Made by a program: the position numbers and the translations under genes
The notes under the pieces: generated by a model
What the model was told of the DNA's origin: nothing
Database searches by the model: none
Seen by the model: the letters and a program-made list of their open reading frames with translations, nothing else
Shown here: positions 1,365 to 52,900 of the stretch, one piece after another
Position numbering within the stretch: the stretch's first letter is position 1
How the letters are laid out: each line of letters starts with the position of its first letter
From: Nymphaea colorata
Lineage: Eukaryota > Streptophyta > Magnoliopsida > Nymphaeales > Nymphaeaceae
Direction of reading: 5' to 3'
Length of the DNA: 64,000 bases
Assembly (NCBI RefSeq): GCF_008831285.2
Contig: NC_045139.1
Coordinates: 34,879,706 to 34,943,705 of the forward strand

Positions 1365-1600
1365 GGGAAAATATTAAGTCTCTAGAATAAACATATATCT
1401 TATGTAAACTAATCCAGCTGGAGATGAACTGGACAACATTCGGATTAATCTTTTACTACTGAAATTAGTCGGAAGAAATAAATATGCAACTTAGCTTCTA
1501 GCAAGGCTACAAGATATTGATAAAAATTTCATAGTTAGAAAAATCAAGACTTTTGGTTTCAATATTTTACTTGAAAAATGATACCAAACTAAAACCAGTG
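1..1600. other. AT-rich intergenic DNA, no gene seen
   Basis: No long or spliced coding signal is recognised on either strand. A CT run passing into a TA run lies at about 1327-1363. The stretch near 385-465 is composed like the end of a small transposon (low complexity with a repeated 'gtgcccct' phrase), but I cannot define its borders. Confidence 0.5.
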
Positions 1601-1608
1601 ATAAGAAT

Positions 1609-1623
1609 TTTTATTAAGAATTG
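1609..1623 (-). terminator. snRNA 3'-box of U1 copy 1 (one mismatch)
   Basis: Plant snRNA genes carry a 3'-end box of the form CA(N3-10)AGTNNAA. Here the RNA end runs into CAATTCTTAATAAAA: spacing fits, but AGT is changed to AAT. The second copy has the exact consensus. Confidence 0.6.
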
Positions 1624-1784
1624 GTGGGGGTCGCGCGAACGCGTTCCCCCGCTACCACAAATTATGACGTCCACTCTCCCACTTGGGGAGATGGTAGAAC
1701 AACTCTCCTCCTAAGTGCAATGGAGGCAGTTGCTCTAGGCCATCGGCCTTTTGGATCACCGATCGACCCCGTCCAGGTAAGTAT
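1623..1784 (-). ncRNA. U1: U1 spliceosomal snRNA, copy 1
   Basis: This is the RNA core of U1 snRNP, which pairs with 5' splice sites. Read from 1784 downward, the RNA starts with ATACTTACCTGG, the invariant splice-site-pairing end. It then has stem-loop I, a loop II containing CCATTGCACTT (U1A-binding core ATTGCAC), the Sm site AATTTGTGG, and a closing stem-loop with the CGCGTTCGCGCG core. The 162-nt length fits plant U1. Upstream are a USE-like box and a TATA box at Pol II spacing; downstream is a 3'-box-like sequence with one mismatch. Loop I reads GATCCAAAAGG, whereas plant U1 usually has GATCAAGAAGG as I recall it, so binding of U1-70K may be weakened. The copy could be functional, a variant, or decaying. 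A second copy lies 1.56 kb away on the same strand. A 63-codon ORF across it is a shadow. Confidence 0.93.
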
Positions 1785-1809
1785 GACTTGACCGGAGTCG
1801 CTCGAGCTC

Positions 1810-1816
1810 TTTTATA
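1810..1816 (-). promoter_or_regulatory. TATA box of U1 copy 1
   Basis: TATAAAA begins 32 nt upstream of the first U1 base on the minus strand. It is 32 nt from the USE-like box. Plant Pol II snRNA genes use this wider spacing, while Pol III types such as U6 have about ten bases less. Confidence 0.75.
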
Positions 1817-1848
1817 GCCCTCTCTGGGTAGGCCCCTTTCCATTTCAA

Positions 1849-1859
1849 CGATACAGGAC
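1849..1859 (-). promoter_or_regulatory. Upstream sequence element (USE) of U1 copy 1
   Basis: GTCCTGTATCG matches the plant USE consensus RTCCCACATCG at 8 of 11 positions; all three differences are transitions. The same variant occurs at the same place in the second U1 copy, within a conserved block ending TGAAATGGAAA. Confidence 0.7.
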
Positions 1860-2667
1860 TATTTTTCCTTCCTTTACCGACGACCTCATGGCGGCAGCCA
1901 TCAGAGTATTGCGGCCTCTGTTTGCTCTCTTCCCTGAATATAAGCTTATATCCTTTTTCAATCAAACAATCATATGCAGCCAAAAATTACTTCCTTTAGA
2001 TTTGGATCTAGTTCTGGTTTTGATCATGCCTCTCCTTTTCTTCAGGAGAAGCGAAATACAAAAAGTTTCTTGAGAATTTTGGTTCTGTTTCAGCATCTTC
2101 GTTGGTGTTTGATGCCCTGCACCTCCCTCTCTCTTCAACGACCTTCTTTTCACTTGAGCACATAACAGGATCCACAAAGTATCTGCTATGTTGGTAGAGA
2201 TCATCTAGATAATATGAATTGTTACTGCAGTTTGGCTGAAAGCAAAAAATTCTTCCTTTGAATTTTCATCAGCTTCTCTTTTTCCCTTGATTTTTTATTC
2301 TGAAGAAGGAAGTTATGCAACTCCGATTACGATGCTGAGCAGTGATTCTCCTGTCCACCACATCAATAAATCATGACTGTCAAGAAAACTGCCAAGTTAG
2401 TCAGGTCATGCTACCCTGCTGCCATCTTAAAAAGAATATGAAAAATGTATATGTTTTCCAAAACGCCCAAGTTTCTCGCACAAGTTTACTGAAAGAAACA
2501 TTCACTTATCTAACTTCGTTCATAACAAAGAATGACTTAAACATGATGTCTATAATTTTTCATATGGATCTTAAAATTGGAATCAACAACATCACATTCA
2601 GTGTGTTCATCCTCAGATGAAATTTTCAAGCTTCCTAACAAGATGAGTAAACAAAAAATATGCAACA

Positions 2668-2825
2668 GAGTCCCTCGAGCCCTTTTTCCGCCCTCTCTCC
2701 CTCGGCCCTTTTCCATTTCATCGACACACAACTATTTTTCCCTTTCCGCCAGAGAGAACGTTCCACACACAACAGCAATCTGTTTGCGGCTTCTGTTACT
2801 CTCTTTCCCTAAACTATCTCATAAT
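2668..2825 (-). pseudogene. Promoter-only relic of a U1 snRNA gene
   Basis: This block aligns with the promoters of both U1 copies. It has a degraded USE (GTTGTGTGTCG, 2722-2732), then TCGATGAAATGGAAAAGGGC, a G-rich spacer, and the GGGCTCGAGGGACTC region seen before the U1 start. The TATA box is lost and no U1 RNA sequence follows. It sits between the two U1 genes, so I read it as the remains of a third array member. Confidence 0.6.
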
Positions 2826-3173
2826 TCAATTGAAAAAACATATGAAAGCCAATTTTAGCAACTTTTTGCTTCAAAAATCCATTCTTTAACTTAATCCGTT
2901 CGGATTTAGTTTCTGTTTTTCAGCAATTTACTGATTGGAACGAACAATTTACAGAAGTGAAAAATAAGTCGCCTCTTCAGGGTTCGATTACGTTTCAACC
3001 TCAATAGATTCAAAGCCATTTATCGGACAGGAGTGATTCTTCATGGAAATCCTTCACGTTGACATGAATTTTGTATAATTCATGGATCGAAGACTCGAAA
3101 AGCGTGAACCGAATAACTTTTGGATTCAATACTTTCCTTGAAAGTGTCACCCAAATAAAACCACTGCAAAACT

Positions 3174-3188
3174 TTTCACTAAGAATTG
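3174..3188 (-). terminator. snRNA 3'-box of U1 copy 2
   Basis: CAATTCTTAGTGAAA, directly after the U1 3' stem, matches the plant snRNA 3'-end signal CA(N3-10)AGTNNAA exactly. This signal directs 3'-end formation of Pol II snRNA transcripts. Confidence 0.8.
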
Positions 3189-3349
3189 GTGGGGGCCGCG
3201 CGAACGCGTTCCCCCGCTGCCACAAATTATGACGTCCACTCTCCCACTTGGGGAGATGGTAGGACAACTCTCCTCCCAAGTGCAATGGAAGCAGTTGCCC
3301 TAGGCCATCGGCCTTTTTGATCACCGATCGACCCCGCCCAGGTAAGTAT
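3188..3349 (-). ncRNA. U1: U1 spliceosomal snRNA, copy 2
   Basis: This second U1 gene is also 162 nt and on the minus strand. It keeps the ATACTTACCTGG 5' end, the ATTGCAC loop II core, the Sm site AATTTGTGG, and the terminal stem-loop. Its USE and TATA box are spaced as in Pol II snRNA genes, and the 3'-box matches the plant consensus exactly. It therefore looks the more likely active of the two copies. Loop I reads GATCAAAAAGG, one base from the plant form GATCAAGAAGG that I remember. It differs from copy 1 by about a dozen substitutions, so the duplication is not brand new. Confidence 0.95.
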
Positions 3350-3375
3350 GATTTACCTGACGCCCCCTCAAGCCC

Positions 3376-3382
3376 TTATATA
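3376..3382 (-). promoter_or_regulatory. TATA box of U1 copy 2
   Basis: CTTATATAG reads as a TATATAAG box on the minus strand, about 33 nt before the U1 start and 33 nt after the USE-like box. Confidence 0.75.
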
Positions 3383-3415
3383 GCCTTCTTCTCCGCACGC
3401 GCTTTTCCATTTCAT

Positions 3416-3426
3416 CGATACAGGAC
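3416..3426 (-). promoter_or_regulatory. USE of U1 copy 2
   Basis: GTCCTGTATCG is the same USE variant as in copy 1, inside a shared AATAGTCCTGTATCG block. Confidence 0.7.
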
Positions 3427-3530
3427 TATTTTTTTTTCCGTTCCCGGCTAACGTGCGAGACCGATAACCGCTTAAGACAGCCGACGCTGCTGCGGCTTTT
3501 GTTGCTCTCTTACCTGAATATTTCAAGCCT

Positions 3531-10706: not shown

Positions 10707-13700
10707 CCAAGATTGCAAAGAAGTCCTATTCCATAAGGAGATGACCACAGAAACTATACACACAGAAACACATCGATGATTGAACTATAAACTACAAAAC
10801 TTTGGCCATGTCTTTTTTAAATTTTTCAGGAAATTTTCAACCTAAAAGAGACAAATTTTGAAGTATCTCAACTCTTCCCTTTATACATATTGAGATAGCA
10901 TTAAGGACACTGTCCATCTCACAGAAACTAACATCTGTAACAATGATGATGGGGGTAAAATAATTTTCAAGTTAAAAGAACATATTTGGAATGCTCCAGC
11001 TCTTTTGTTCATGCGAGGAATTGGATGTAATCCCCACTTTCTAATCAAGTTTCGTAATTACAGAAAATTTTCTTGGACCTATTTGCTTCACATTAGCCTC
11101 GGCCTGTTTCAACCAAGGTTTGAAGGAAATCTTTGTAATGAAGCAAGCCTCTGAAAAGGCATTATCCTTGTTGGCTATCGTTGCTTCCTCATGTTTCTGT
11201 AAGGCCAGTAATCAGCTGAATGGTTTTTAATCATGGCACATGCACGATTATAATCTAGGAAAAGGCTCAATTACTTGTAATATCCATATAAATAAATGCT
11301 CCCACTAGAAAGATTTGAAATTGATCCACTAGTAAAAAACATTTTCATAGAAAGTAAATACAGGTGCATGTATGCAAGTAAATGATGGAATATGCTCTTT
11401 CTCAGCTTTTCCTCTTGAAAGATGTATCTGATGCAGCAGAAATTTGGAAATTTGAGAACCTTGGACAAAGGAGTAGCAGAAAACTCAACCCTCATGGCAT
11501 CGTACACGAACAAGTTGTCGCTAATCAATTGAGGGGAAACAATAGATGGAGTAACTAATCCTGAACATAACTATGAATGTAACTTTGATATATGTACACC
11601 AAGATTACGGTGGACACCAGAGCATTCAATGCAAAGGAGAATGCCAAGGTTCAGAGAGGTCCAATCTGGCTCAGGAGCCCCACAATCTGCACATTTGTCA
11701 TTGGCATCAACTCTCCTCAGCACTTCAATGGGCTTCTCGTGTTTCATGCTGGACCTGTGCTGCTGTATGCTTCTAGTTGAATGTTCATGATTTCCTGTAA
11801 TCAAGTTCCTGTCGGAAGTAGTAGATTCCCCCAATGCTGCCTCATCAGCATCAGAAGAGATTTCTAAAGAACTGCTTTCACTAGCAGTATGACGATGGCC
11901 GCTTCCCATTGGGCTAGAAGGCAGTCCCTGGAAAGTTAACAAATCAAAGAAGGAAGAAAAAAGAGCACTTTTATAGTTTGAACAAGAGCTATTTGCATGA
12001 AAATTTTATGGACAACTTACCAACTCAGGCGATTGGAAACTAAGTAATGATGCAATTACTCCAGTTATCTTTTCAATCCAATCCATTTGATCCAGTGCAC
12101 TCTCTGCCTGCAGAAAAAACAGAGATACAAATACCAAAGGCAGTATAAGGTCAAATTTCAGAATCTAGATGCAGCAGTCCAATGCTTGAAGATTGCTAGA
12201 AAGATCAATAACACAATATCCACACCACCAGTTAACCAATCATAATCATACAAACCATTACCTGCAATGTGTAGTTCTTTGATGGAGAAATAATCCTAAA
12301 GCAGAAGCGAAGATCTGATTGTTCTGCATCAACCTAAATTGTGGATGTGAGCAGATTAACAGTATGATGTGGAAAAGCAATCTGCCCAACAAGCCAGAAC
12401 CATGCTCTGAGGAACTATAACCCCTTCTCGAATTTTGGCTTCCACCTCCCTAGACAAATGATGGGATTATAAAGAAAAAAAAAGTAATATAAAAATAAAT
12501 AAAACTAAAGACCAAATGCCTGAAATATTAAATCAAATTCTATGGTAAACAACTTATTGACGGCCTTCCACATTGCGTGCGATAATAATATAGCATTCCT
12601 CAGCTGTCAAGAACAAAGAATCTCCTCTTCCAATCACCTCTCAGGTTTGATGAACGTTTTGAAAGATATCCTTGCCGGATAGTTTGTAACTGAGTCACCA
12701 AATAGAAGCATAATCGAGCAAAATCAAAATTTTCAGGAATTCATTAGAAGGAAACATATAGAATGAAAAATAAAAAAATTGACTCAACAAAGAATGCACA
12801 ACTGCTATCCATCAGGAAAATGAAAATGTCGATTCCAAATAAATTCAACTTCAGAAGCTACCTTTCCCTTTACAGCAGATTGCATGACTGCCTCTATCAT
12901 CTTATGTGAACTTCTACCAATGGTTTGTATTCTGTCCCTTGTAGGTGAACCGTGAGAGCCATTAGAAGACCACCTATTTTCACGATCTATTTGTCTTTTG
13001 TATTCCTGCATTCTCTCGGCAAGCACTGCGTGATCATAATTGGACCTTTCTCTTGACCGTTGTGCATAAATCAACACCTACAGATGTTTTAAATAAAGAA
13101 ACAGCTCAACGTTAGTGGCCAAATGAAAAATGTACAGCCAGTGAAATGTACAGATGAAGGCATTTTAGAAAATACCTTTGACACCAGACAAGTTCGATAA
13201 TAGTTGCATTTTCTCATTTTGCAAGTGTAATTATCTAGCTAGATACATGATAGGTAATTTTCATGTTGTGAATAATTGGTTGTAACATCATCTTCCAGAC
13301 TCCACCTCATAAAATTTTATTAAATGATTCAGATAGACCTTATTTGCCCAGGCATTCAAATTGCTGACAGTTGGTTTATCTTTGCTTTCACACCAAAATG
13401 ACAATGAATTCCTTTCAGTTCAATATGCTATTTTGAGATGCTCAAAGTTCTAACAGTCCTAAAAATCAAATTTCAGAAAAGGGAGATTGGTAAATGTTAT
13501 GTTGTACAGATGCTGTCATTGACAATGTACGACTGAAATTAAGCAGTCTAAATCCTGAATTGCAATTTGATAATACAATCTTCATCAAAAAAATACCATT
13601 CCTGATTCCTCATACAAAATTTTTATGAGACTTCAACCTTTCATCTTAGCAAAAGGCCTGAAAAGTTCTTCTCCATAAAAGTTTGACAAAAAAAAAATCA

Positions 13701-33415: not shown

Positions 33416-33608
33416 GACAAACAACCTGACCCACTCCCAAGCTCGGGCTCCTGGTTCGGCAGATCCCAACCCATCCCCTAGCAGTTTCGGTTTCAGTCCC
33501 AAAAAGGTTAGAAATTAAGACAATCATCTTATTAATGACCCCCCCTTTATAAGCCATTGAAGATCTCTCACAATCTTCAATACAAGATTAAACATTTTAA
33601 GCATTACA
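33416..33608 (-). mobile_element. Solo LTR relic, same family as the TRIM at 51.8 kb
   Basis: The 193-bp minus-strand segment starts TGTAATG and follows the LTR of the TRIM element at 51791-52250 along its whole length, including 'GAAACTGCTAGGGG'. No internal region or second LTR is beside it, so it is a solo LTR fossil. It is more diverged than the TRIM pair and probably several million years old. Confidence 0.7.
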
Positions 33609-46911: not shown

Positions 46912-49900
46912 GGAGCTTAAACAAACAAACCTAGAAGCAAAATATGCATTTGAATTAGAGTGTAAAGTATGTTAACATCAGTTATTAACAGCTGCATCTG
47001 TACCCATGGCTCATCTGGTGTGAAACCAACCCAGGTGTGGCAGCCAATTTGCTACAGCACCATGTGAAATAGGTTTAAATCCTGAATCATATGTTTTATA
47101 TTCAACAATCAAATACTAAAACTTCAATAGTTTAATAGTTTCTCCATAATCACCCCTCAAAGCTTCCCCTTTCCTGGTATGGCAAGCAAAGTAGCAAGCG
47201 AATTAGCAAAATGACCAAACATTCCATGCATTTCCTCATGCAGCATCGGATGTTAGCACAATTAACAACCAGAAAGTAGGTCATCTTTCACAATTATTCA
47301 ATAAAATTGAGAAATCAGATTGCAGTTACCTTCGATTGAATATACTTTTCCTTTGCTGAAATTGAATCACTAGAAGCAGGTTTGCTCATAAGGATTGGGT
47401 GGTGGTTCTTCACAGATTCACTAGAGCTGAAAGAAAAGGAAAACATTAGTTTCCACTTTCCACAAGTTGATATTAGAATAGAACATACAATACCGAAGAA
47501 TGAGAAATCACTTTAAAATTATCATTATACCTCATGTCAGCATCACCTGAACTCGATTTATTGGTGAAATGCAACTGCTTCTCCCAAATTGAGTTAGCAT
47601 ATGTATTACCAAGTGTCTGGAATAAATTGATTACAGAAAACTCCCATACCTTGACATCAAGTGTTAGAGACCTGACCTGCACAAACAATGTGTATGGAAC
47701 ACCAGGAGCATTCAAATTATCTACAAGAAATAAATAGCAGAACAACCTAGCCAAAAATGAGAAGTCCTGCTCCAGAAAGAGATGACCATACAACTATACA
47801 CACAGAAACACCCAGCCAAGATTGCAAAGAAGTTCTATTCCATAAGGAGATGACCGACAAAACTATACACACAGAAACACATCAATGATTGAACTATAAA
47901 CTACAAAACTTTGGCAGGCCATGACTTTTTTAAATTTTTCAGGAAATTTTCAACCTAAAAGAGACAAATTATGAAGTATCTCAACTCTTCCCGTTATACA
48001 TCTTGAGATAGCATTAAGGGCACTGTCCATTTCACAGAAACTAACATCCGTAACAATGATGATGTGGGTACTGGAGAGCAATAATTTTCAAGTTAAAAGA
48101 ACATATTTGGAATGCTCCAGTTCTTTCGTTCATGCGAGGAATTGGATGTAACCCCCACTTTCTAATCAAGTTTCCTAATTACAGAAAATTTTCTTGGACC
48201 TATTTTCTTGACATTAGCCTCAGGCCCTCAGCCTGTTTCAACCAAGTTTTGAAGGAAATCTTTGTAATGAAGCAAGCCTCTGAAAAGGCATTATCCTTGT
48301 TGGTTATCGTTGCTTCCTCATGTTTTTGCAAGGCCAGTAATCAGCTGGAATGGTTTTTAATCATGGCACATGCACGACTATATTCTAGGAAAAGGCTCAA
48401 TTACTTGTAATATCCATATAAATAAGTGCTCCCACTAGAAAGACTTGAAATTGATCCACTAGTAAAAACATTTTCATAGAAAGTAACTACAGGTGCATGT
48501 ATGCATGTAAATGATGGAATATGCTCTTTCATGGTTTTTCCTCCTGAAAGATGTATCTGATGCAACAGAAATTTGAGAACCTTGGACAAAGGAGTCTCAG
48601 AAAACTCAACCCTCATTGTATAGTACATAAACAAGTTGTCGCTAATCAATTGAGGGGAAACAATAGATGGAGTAACTAATCCTCAACATAACTATGAAAG
48701 TACCTTTGATATATGTACACCAAGATTACGGTGGACACCAGAGCATTCAATGCAAAGGAGAATGCCAAGGTTCAGAGAGGCCCAATCTGGCTCAGGAGCC
48801 CCACAATCTGCACATTTGTCATTGCCATCAACTCTCCTCAGCACTTCAATGGGCTTCTCGTGTTTCATGCTGGACCTGTGCTGCTGTATGCTTCTAGTTG
48901 AATGTTCATGATTTCCTGTAATCAAGTTCCTGTCTGAAGTAGAGTTCCCCAATGCTGCCTCATCAGCATCAGAAGAGATTTCTAAAGAACTGCTTTCACT
49001 AGCAGTATGACGATGGCCGCTTCCCATTGGGCTAGAAGGCAGTCCCTGGAAAGTTAATAAATCAAAGAAGGAAGAAACAAGAGCACTTTTATAGTTTGAA
49101 GAAGGAGCTATTTGCATGAAATTTTGTGGGCAACTTACCAACTCAGGCGATTGGAAACTAAGTAATGATGCAATTACTCCAGTTATCTTTTCAATCCAAT
49201 CCATTTGATCCAGTGCACTCTCTGCCTGCAGAAAAAACAGAGATAGAAATACCAAAGGCAGTATATGGTCAAATTTCAGAATCTAGATGCAGAAGTCCAA
49301 TGCTTGAAGATTGCTAGAAAGATCAATAACACAATATCCACACCACCAATGAACCAATCATAATCATACAAACCATTACCTGTAATGTGTAGTTCTTTGA
49401 TGGAGAAATAATCCTAAAGCAGAAGCGAAGATCTGATTGTTCTGCATCAACCTTAATTGTGGATGTGAGCAGATTAACAGTATGATGTGGAACAGACTTC
49501 TCATCGTGCACACCAACATGGTAGCGGGATGAAAGCCATCTGCCCAACAAGCCAGAACCATGCTCTGAGGAACTATAACCCCTTCTCGAATTTTGGCTTC
49601 CACCTCCCTAGACAAATGATGGGATTATAAAGAAAAAAAAAAGTAATAGAAAAATAAATAAAACTAAAGACCAAATGCCTGAAATATTCTATCAAATTCT
49701 ATGGTAAACAACTCACTGATGGCCTTCCACACTGCGTGCGATAATAATATAACATTCCTCGGCTGTCAAGGACAAAGAATCTCCTCTTCCAATCACCTCT
49801 CAGGTTTGACGAACGTTTTGAAAGATATCCTTGCCGGATAGTTTGTACCTGAGTCACCAAATAGAAGCATAATCGAGCAAAATCAAAATTTTCAGGAATT

Positions 49901-52900
49901 CATTAGAAGGAAACATCTAGAATGACAAATAAAACAATTGTCTTAACAAAGAATGCACAACTGCTATCCATCAGGAAAATGAAAATGTCGATGCCAAATA
50001 AATTCAACTTCAGAAGCTACCTTTCCCTTTACAGCTGATTGCATGACTGCCTCTATCATCTTATGTGAACTTCTACCAATGGTTTGTATTCTGTCCCTTG
50101 AAGGAGAACCATGAGAGCCATTAGAAGACCACCTATTTTCACGATCTATTTGTCTTTTGTATTCCTGCATTCTCTCGGCAAGAACTGCCTGATCATAATT
50201 GGATCTTTCTCTTGACTGTTGTGCATAAATCAACACCTACAGATGTTTTAAATAAAGAAACAGCTCAACATTAGTGGCCAAATGAAAAATGTACAGCCAG
50301 TGAAATGAACAGATGAAGGCATTTTAGAAAATACCTTTGACACCAGACAAGTTCGATAATAGTTGCATTTTCTCATTTTCCAAGTGTAATTATCTAGTTA
50401 GATACATGATAGGTGATTTCATGTTGTGAATAATTGGTTGTACCATCTCTTCCAGATTCCACCTCATAAAATTTTATTACTCTCATCCTTCAAATGATTC
50501 AGATAGACCTTACTTGCCCAGGCATTCAAATTGCTGACAGTTGGTTTATCTTTGCTTCCACACTAAAATGAAATGAATTCTTCTCAATTCAATATGCTAT
50601 TTTGAGATGCTCAAAGTTCTAACAGTCCTAAGAATCAAATTTCAGGAAAGGGAGATTGGTAAATGTTATGTTGTACAGATGCTGTCATTGACAATGTGCG
50701 ACTGAAATTAAGCAGTTTAAAGGCTGAATTGCAATTAGATAATACAATCTTCATCAAACAAATACCATTCCTCATACGAAATTTTTATGAGACTTCAACC
50801 TTTCATCTTAGCAAAAGGCCTGAAAAGTTCTTCTCCATAAAAGTTTGACAAAAAAAAAAATTCAGTGCAGCACATGCTTCAGGTTATATGAAAGTTCAGA
50901 AATATCTGCACTGTCAAAAAGTGCCAACCTGATGGATATAAGGCTCCATTTGGTGCAGCAACTCATAACCCTGCAAAAAATTAAGTAATGAGGACCCTAA
51001 TGCTTCACATAAGCTACTAAATGTTTATATAAATAGGTCAACTGACATACTTGCTTAAAATAGCGAAGATGAGCTTCCATTGTTCCACTAACAGCCTCCA
51101 AGAACTCAAACCTTTTCTTTGATTCCACATTTGATAAAGCAGTGATCTGTACAGAAGGCATGTTAAACTCAAGAAGGAAACATCATTTGAAGCCATAACT
51201 TCAACACTCATTCTTTTAGTTGCTGTCTAACAGTAAGAATTTGTGACCTGTGCGTGTATGTATATGTGCTGTCTGCATGTCTGTGTATGATAAACAATGA
51301 AAAAACAATAAAACATACATACAAGATTGAAGCGAGCCTGTTCAAAAGAAGCTCTTGCACTGTGAAGTTCCTGGAATACATCTATGCCCCAAATCAGAAC
51401 TCATACTAAAACAGTCATAACTTGATCTTAGAAACTTGAAGGTTAAAGTAAAATCAATACCTCCTCTGCAACAGCAACAATATCAATCTTGGTACTCTTC
51501 CTCATTGACAAAAACTTCTCTCGTGTCTAGCAAAAATTGGAATTTAGGGTTAATGAACCCAAAGCATAAACACTTTGTCAATAAATGATGTGATTTTATA
51601 CTATCGTCCTGACTAGCTGCAAAAAATCTATCATTTGATGTAACCTAGATTCTTTACCGACTGATAACTAAAACTACATAACATTAATACATAAAGATTA
51701 GCAGACAAATAACAAATTACACCCTTCATCATCACATTGAAGTGCAAAAGACATATTTTTCAAAACATTCCCAAATAAACTCAGAACATCTGTAATGCCC
51801 CAAATGTTTAGTCTCGTATCGAAGTTTGTGAGGAATCTTCAAAGGTTTATAAAGGGGGTCATTGATAAGAAGATCGACCTGGTTCCTAGCCTTTTCAGGG
51901 TTGGAACCGAAACTGCTAGGGGGGCGGGTTTGGATCCGTCGAACCAGGGGCCCGAGCCCAGGAGTGAGGTCGGGTTGTTATAATGGTATCAGAGCCGGTT
52001 TCAACACTCAGACCTAGGGTGTCACACGCGCTGACGCGTGTGCCTTAAGGGGGGTGGATTGTAATGCCCCAAATGTTTAGTTCAGTATCGAAGATTGTGA
52101 GGAATCTTCAATGGTTTATAAAGGGGGCCATTGGTGAGAAGATCGTCATGGTTCCTATCCTTTCAGGGTTGGAAGCGAAACTGCTAGGGGGGTGGGTTGG
52201 GATCTGTTGAACCAGGGGCCCGAGCTCGGGAGTGGGGTCGGGTGGTTATAACATCTATATAAAAAAAGGTATACATGATCATAGGGCATGATCATCCTAA
52301 TAGCTCCACAGTCATAGTATCAAACAATATTGCTACTTACGGGACTTATCGTTCATGACCACCTCTTATATGTTCAAAAGAAGAATATTAAACCATAATC
52401 TCCTTAAGAAAAAAAATTACAAAGAATTTTAAAATTTCAAAACAGTACATGTTCCACAGGTCTATGTGTCATTTTTGGCAGCAATTTGAGAACTTCCACT
52501 AAGAAATGAGCAAATTCAGTAAACTTTAGAAAATTCTGAAATTTCCAGTAGTAAAAGAAACTTTTTCTGTTTCTACATTTTCAGGACAAATGCGGATGAA
52601 ATGACAACTTCCACTTTGAATGTATAAAGCTGACAAAGACTTGCAGACAACCACTAGGTTGCAGCATCTCACCAACCTTGAGGACAAAGGAACAAGCCCA
52701 CGAAGCAGCAAATGCGAAAAAAAAAGGATAATTCTGGGCCTTTACATATAGGAAAAGGGAGAAAAAAAGGTGATGAAGGCAAACCAAAAGTCTCTCGTGA
52801 GACAATTCAAACACATGAAGGCAATTCAAACTTCTTTTTCTATTGGTGACAATCCAAAAAAATGGAATAAAGGAATTGAAACCATCACCAACACAAACAG

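Follow-up and report, generated by a model that had tools for sequence, protein, structure and literature searches.

The USE of snRNA genes is read by a SNAPc-type factor, as has been worked out in animals and in Arabidopsis. In plant snRNA genes, the USE and the TATA box drive transcription, the spacing between them selects the polymerase and the 3' box directs formation of the 3' end (PMC9845283, PMC5079582, PMC545797), the USE of the Pol III genes U6 and U3 being placed one helical turn closer to the TATA box (PMC9845283). In the text cited, the USE is stated as a single plant consensus (PMC9845283), and the consensus of the plant 3' box is given as CA(N)3-10AGTNNAA (PMC5079582). In Arabidopsis, seven U1-U4 clusters have been described (PMC545797). 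Promoters of small RNA genes are also known from mobile elements, namely from TRIMs that contain 5S or tRNA Pol III promoters in their LTRs (TRIMp3, PMC10886601).

Here, a 64,000-nucleotide stretch of Nymphaea colorata DNA (the window) was analysed together with the assembly from which it comes. We propose, with a probability of about 0.88, that the window contains two probably functional U1 genes and the relic of a further promoter, and that a variant USE has replaced the textbook form, RTCCCACATCG, for both polymerases. A search of the window with the Rfam model RF00003 yielded two matches to the whole model (positions 1-166, 138.9 bits and E 3.5e-35 each, twice the gathering cut-off of 69.5 bits), copy A at 3189..3349, with its 5' end at 3349, and copy B at 1624..1784, both on the minus strand. 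These are the two minus-strand U1 genes that a sequence-only reading of this DNA had claimed, and their start-to-start distance, which that reading had put at 1.56 kb, was measured as 1,565 nt. The USE of copy A, TAGTCCTGTATCG, occupies 3416..3428 (exact GTCCTGTATCG at 3416-3426) and is followed, after a gap of 33 nt, by the TATA box TATATA at 3377..3382, which starts 33 nt before +1. Copy B has the same USE at 1849..1861 (exact GTCCTGTATCG at 1849-1859) and, after a gap of 32 nt, the TATA box TATAAA at 1811..1816. Copy A has its 3' box, AGTGAAA, at 3174..3180 as an exact match to AGTNNAA, and a 3'-box-like AATAAAA of copy B is found at 1609..1615 with one mismatch to AGTNNAA; all of these elements are on the minus strand. 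Each gene had been credited with a USE, a TATA box and a 3' box spaced as in Pol II genes; the first two stand for both copies, the last stands for copy A, and copy B falls one mismatch short. The variant USE was also said to be identical in both copies and to depart from RTCCCACATCG at three positions, and this is what was found, with 3/11 positions differing in either copy. Exact GTCCTGTATCG occurs at two sites only in the window, both at the U1 genes. When up to three mismatches are allowed, its frequency in the window is that expected by chance (73 sites versus 81.4 in shuffles), and the same is true for the textbook USE with up to two mismatches (12 sites versus a shuffle mean of 14.7); the two exact variant sites alone stand out. 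Since the variant occupies the position of a USE, it probably works like one.

Both copies could be pseudogenes or silent variants, and loop I, the binding site of U1-70K, indeed departs from the Rfam consensus GAUCAaGAAGg in both of them (GAUCAAAAAGG and GAUCCAAAAGG). Against this, the 5' end, the Sm site and the stems are intact and the promoters are complete. The 5' end AUACUUACCUG, which pairs with 5' splice sites, is identical in all 12 U1 paralogues compared, and the Sm site AUAAUUUGUGG is present in both window copies. The paralogues come from the window's own assembly (407.8 Mb, 783 contigs), in which 17 U1 matches were found, 15 of them over the cut-off. The best 12 score at least 132.6 bits each and all differ in sequence; these intact genes are spread over five places, each of which has two or three copies within no more than 30 kb. 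Across the 12 paralogues, 99.3% of 564 stem cells contain standard pairs. Changes on both sides were found in four pairs, compared with a shuffle mean of 2.1 (reached by 25/500 shuffles), and in 10 stem cells, compared with a mean of 3.6 (reached by 0/500); one measure points in the opposite direction, as further pair types numbered 14 versus 15.3 in shuffles, with 496 of 500 shuffles at or above the observed value. Sliding the partner positions of the stems lowers pairing to 43-51%, a comparison that favours the true pairing over the slid versions because the structure was taken from one of the aligned U1 sequences. With their paired stems and the both-side changes among paralogues, the window U1 genes look intact. 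Nor does loop I single them out, since the consensus loop was found in 0/12 intact paralogues. Loop I is the most variable 7-nt stretch across the 12 paralogues, and 1,743 of 20,000 column shuffles contained some equally variable stretch; variability above chance is hence suggestive only. Overall, it is quite improbable that the two copies are pseudogenes or silent variants and, judged by their sequences, both genes are probably functional. As a pair of U1 genes, they are ordinary; their promoter motif is not.

The two copies are duplicates, as their promoters and genes are 85.6% identical over 334 nt, a unit that also includes the 3' flank; the gene bodies alone are 95% identical. A third U1 promoter, now a relic, is found on the minus strand at 2668..2741 and shares 81% identity with the copy B promoter across 74 nt. 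It sits between both U1 genes and is absent from the sequence-only reading. Its USE, GTTGTGTGTCG at 2722-2732, is changed at 3/11 positions and its surroundings at 14/74; the USE has thus decayed about as fast as the sequence around it, which amounts to weak evidence of selection. No TATA box is present in the relic at 2668-2741, nor does RF00003 match this segment at E<=1. At one time the cluster comprised three units or was beginning to do so, and a local tandem duplication would account for the U1 pair as well as for the decayed third promoter.

Duplication could also explain why the window copies share the variant, if this were a local or U1-only form. Consistent with such an origin is the 85.6% identity of the duplicated unit. 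However, the same 13-mer is found ahead of U5 genes and, exact or with up to two changes, ahead of the five best U6 genes, and the U1, U5 and U6 loci were all found by their RNA models, independently of the motif. The exact 11-mer USE is present at 12/17 U1 matches; a further U1 locus (L003) has a USE with two changes and another (L015) a USE with an insertion, and no USE was found at three weak or degenerate copies (L014, L016 and L017). Exact TAGTCCTGTATCG is present at 10/11 U5 matches. The exception (L090) is an atypical U5, located on a separate unplaced contig, C621, and perhaps from a contaminant. For U6, 15 of the 48 matches in the genome were read for a USE. The five best (111-113 bits) have it at -65, exact in L047 and L049, with one change in L048 and with two changes in L045 and L046, and no USE site within two changes was found at the ten weaker ones read (at most 82.1 bits). 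A genome search for U2 with RF00004, in which 46 of 21,948 candidates were scored, reached no more than 59.9 bits, and its weak matches were not used.

The USE was tabulated for 29 loci, consisting of 14 U1, 10 U5 and 5 U6 and leaving out L014, L016, L017, L090 and 43 of the 48 U6 matches. Across these, TAGTCC and GTA, 9 of the 13 positions, are invariant, and the less fixed positions are the T between TAGTCC and GTA (28/29), the following T (28/29), the C (25/29) and the G (26/29). TA precedes GTCCTGTATCG at all 29 loci, and every one of them differs from RTCCCACATCG at no fewer than three positions. The gap between the USE and the TATA box is 31-35 nt in 13 of the 14 U1 loci, the exception being the broken L015, 32-35 nt in 10/10 U5 loci and 24-28 nt in the five U6 loci; in U1 loci, the TATA box lies 32-33 nt ahead of +1. 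These gaps conform to the published rule by which spacing decides between the polymerases. The suggestion of a lineage-specific promoter form gains support, within this one genome, from the same USE ahead of U1, U5 and U6 and, at loci found through the motif, ahead of U3, U4 and 7SL, as well as from the chance-level count of the textbook form beside a TATA box (below). A U1-specific variant is ruled out by U5, U6 and the genome-wide census of the 13-mer, and the presence of the variant in other classes of gene refutes the local or U1-only reading, leaving it practically no credence.

In the whole genome, TAGTCCTGTATCG has 230 exact sites, compared with 5 for a reversed control. The textbook TCCCACATCG followed by N18-38 and TATAWA occurs 3 times in the genome versus 9 times for its control, that is at chance level, the textbook USE having been counted solely beside a strict TATAWA. 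Taken with the variant USE at the U1, U5 and U6 genes, these counts suggest that the variant has taken the place of the consensus USE in snRNA-type genes of Pol II as well as of Pol III. All 72 exact sites on contigs C1-C3 were taken for classification. Fourteen are genes already found (12 U1, 1 U5 and 1 U6), and the remaining 58 were cut out as 473-nt pieces and classed by cmscan and sequence. The pieces include three U3, two U4 and two plant 7SL genes, which were found through the motif, so that their counts give no share of carriers, and one snoR114 match (45.9 bits, cut-off 45). Another 21 are TRIM-like LTR copies and 14 are copies of a second repeat; 12 were classed as other and 3, with incomplete sequence, were left unclassified, as were two such pieces from C4, which are not among the 58. 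By eye, the 12 others include a U4-like piece (L101), a U5-like fragment (L149) and snoRNA-like pieces (L145-L147).

Two dispersed repeat families thus hold 35 of the 72 exact sites on C1-C3, as would fit a history in which the variant USE was dispersed by these elements, the TRIM and the second repeat, and passed from them to the snRNA genes. Two observations make this most improbable: judged by eye, snRNA genes and repeats share the USE alone and not the surrounding sequence, and the gap to the TATA box is 31-35 nt in U1, U4 and U5 (L015 apart) versus 26 nt in the TRIM. The TRIM-like LTR starts with TGTAA, 18 nt ahead of the USE, in 21/21 copies, and an exact TATA box is present 26 nt past the USE in 17 of them, the spacing also seen in U3 (3/3). 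In the second repeat, the TATA box lies at 26 or 27 nt in 10/14 copies. A primer-binding site (PBS) was found in 4/21 TRIM-like pieces. TRIM-like repeats of other plants may have GTCCCACATCGG as well, with TATAAG placed about 26 nt further on; among the papers that a literature text search for TCCCACATCGG listed, none concerns a plant repeat by its title.

The window itself contains a complete old TRIM at 51791-52250. This 460-bp element, which is without coding capacity judged by its length, has two LTRs of about 191 bp that are 89-90% identical over their aligned parts, a 5-bp target-site duplication (TSD), ACATC, the PBS TGGTATCAGAGCC and a purine tract (PPT), and with its short LTRs, TSD, PBS and PPT qualifies as a TRIM. 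Each of its LTRs has a USE with two mismatches and, 26 nt on, TATAAA. A run of at least four T starts 43-45 nt past the start of the TATA box in 17/21 TRIM-like copies; coming soon after the expected start, it would end Pol III transcription early. Because an exact USE was the criterion by which the 21 copies were chosen, the identity of their USEs is no evidence of selection. In nine old copies with an ungapped USE that had not been selected for it, the USE was not better kept than its flanks (15/117 versus 25/306 positions changed, p 0.19); of the 12 rows available, three that lack a USE in register were left out (L087, L089 and the second LTR of L096). Among the papers listed at the top of the literature searches, none describes a TRIM with an snRNA-type promoter in its title or at the start of its abstract. 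A distant precedent is the trypanosomatid retrotransposon promoter that is bound by SNAP50 (PMC8190864).

Returning to the replaced USE, we hypothesize that the U1 pair would be driven by a promoter of the plant snRNA type, consisting of the USE, a TATA box 32-33 nt further on and a 3' box, in which the USE and the TATA box would drive transcription, their spacing would select the polymerase and the 3' box would direct 3' end formation. The form of the USE used in this plant would be (T)TAGTCCTGTATCG in place of RTCCCACATCG, and it would act from 31-35 nt ahead of the TATA box in genes of the Pol II type (U1, U4 and U5) and from 24-28 nt ahead of it in genes of the Pol III type (U3 and U6). 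The arrangement found agrees with this scheme except in the letters of the USE and in the 3' box of copy B. The same letters stand ahead of unrelated genes of both polymerases, from which the simplest inference is that the preference of the factor changed. A SNAPc-like factor that reads the USE may thus have altered its DNA preference, and its target genes, along with certain mobile elements that share this promoter, may have been re-tuned together.

The direction of this change is judged from one genome set against published consensus sequences. Of the two forms, the textbook USE is probably the older one and the variant derived from it, because four spruce U6 upstream sequences shown in PMC8551722 contain TCCCACATGC, which is close to the textbook USE, and Arabidopsis has RTCCCACATCG. 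Alternatively, the variant would not be derived at all, and would be an old alternative kept in the whole clade of this plant and perhaps elsewhere, the textbook USE being a consensus of eudicots and grasses. One genome was searched and the published USEs come from few species, which leaves room for this reading; however, the near-textbook sequence in spruce lies outside the angiosperms, and a literature text search for GTCCTGTATCG returned papers that by their titles concern fish or mouse, with no plant use described among them. We regard an old alternative as unlikely. Also rather doubtful is a more far-reaching proposal, in which the DNA specificity of the snRNA activating factor was reset in this plant lineage, the Pol II and Pol III snRNA-type promoters read here shifted jointly from CCCACA to CCTGTA, and the TRIMs, with a USE of the new form and a TATA box at Pol III spacing, would have an external, snRNA-type promoter that tracks the host factor, a type of TRIM not named in PMC10886601.

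A plant with a variant USE shared by both polymerases would offer a natural experiment in how a basal factor evolves jointly with its numerous targets. The USE is also what CRISPR designers look for when U6 and U3 promoters are picked, and standard U6 promoters of Arabidopsis or rice are predicted to be poor in this plant, and vice versa. The TRIM finding, if true, connects the machinery that transcribes snRNA genes with a mobile element.

Compared with plant Pol II snRNA genes, the window genes have the same order of elements, the same spacing of USE and TATA box and the same position of the TATA box. The distance of about four helical turns that characterizes the Pol II type is seen in both copies, at 33 and 32 nt. 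In contrast, the core of the USE, CCCACA in plant Pol II snRNA genes, is CCTGTA here, with a constant TA ahead of it. The plant 3' box is exact in 1 of the 14 U1 loci, and in seven others the best match has AAT in place of AGT. With plant Pol III snRNA genes, the U6 and U3 genes of this genome share the closer spacing of USE and TATA box, but their USE shows the same replacement as in the Pol II genes. As in the clusters of Arabidopsis, snRNA genes are arranged in small local arrays; however, those clusters combine U1 with U4, whereas the groups found here are of U1 with U1, and the Rfam model search found no U4 match within the window. The closest described mobile elements are TRIMp3, in which Cassandra and Ajax contain 5S and Helenus tRNA promoter sequences (PMC10886601); the term snRNA is absent from the main text of that paper. 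These elements and the window TRIM alike have short LTRs, a PBS, a PPT and promoter sequence of a small-RNA-gene type, but in the window TRIM this sequence is a putative external pair of USE and TATA box of the snRNA type, located in the LTR.

The variant upstream sequence element (USE) is not confined to snRNA genes in the material compared here. A complete 460-bp terminal-repeat retrotransposon in miniature (TRIM) lies on the plus strand of the window at 51791-52250, flanked by the target site duplication ACATC and equipped with a PBS and a PPT. Both of its LTRs (51791-51982 and 52060-52250) carry a USE-like motif, TAGTCTCGTATCG and TAGTTCAGTATCG, each followed 26 nt downstream by TATAAA. 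A further LTR-like copy is found on the minus strand near 33578. Among the 473-nt genomic pieces around exact USE sites, 14 belong to a second dispersed repeat (L098, L104, L105, L109, L111, L118, L121, L128, L137, L140-L143 and L151; USE site at index 60 of each piece), in which CACCATTCTT, slightly varied, immediately precedes the exact USE. TATA follows 26-27 nt past the USE in 10 of these 14 copies. In several of the 14, GC-rich tracts such as GGTGCGGTTTGGGTGCG lie downstream.

Besides the USE, the 3' box may also have shifted, judging from the 3' flanks of 14 U1 loci, because an exact AGTNNAA is present at only one, and AAT replaces AGT in the best match at seven others (e.g. AATGAAA and AATAAAA). 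Within the U1 RNA itself, loop I (U1 positions 28-38; window 3312-3322 and 1747-1757) is the U1-70K site, and contacts between the two are described in PMC4383343. The 12 intact U1 paralogues (L001-L012) have eight distinct loop I sequences, none of them the Rfam consensus, and this variability was matched in 1,743 of 20,000 column shuffles.

Elsewhere in the window, two ArfGAP-domain ORFs (11571-12005 and 48692-49282 (-)) are highly alike and lie ~37 kb apart, which suggests a duplicated segment. The U5 match L090, on unplaced contig C621, is of a different type, lacks the USE and is possibly a contaminant from another eukaryote.

The five best U6 genes (L045-L049) start with GTCTCTTCGGAGACA in four cases and GTCTCCTCGGAGACA in one, whereas U6 of most plants starts with GTCCCTTCGGGGACA; relative to that form, the N. 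colorata start would be a paired change within the 5' stem.
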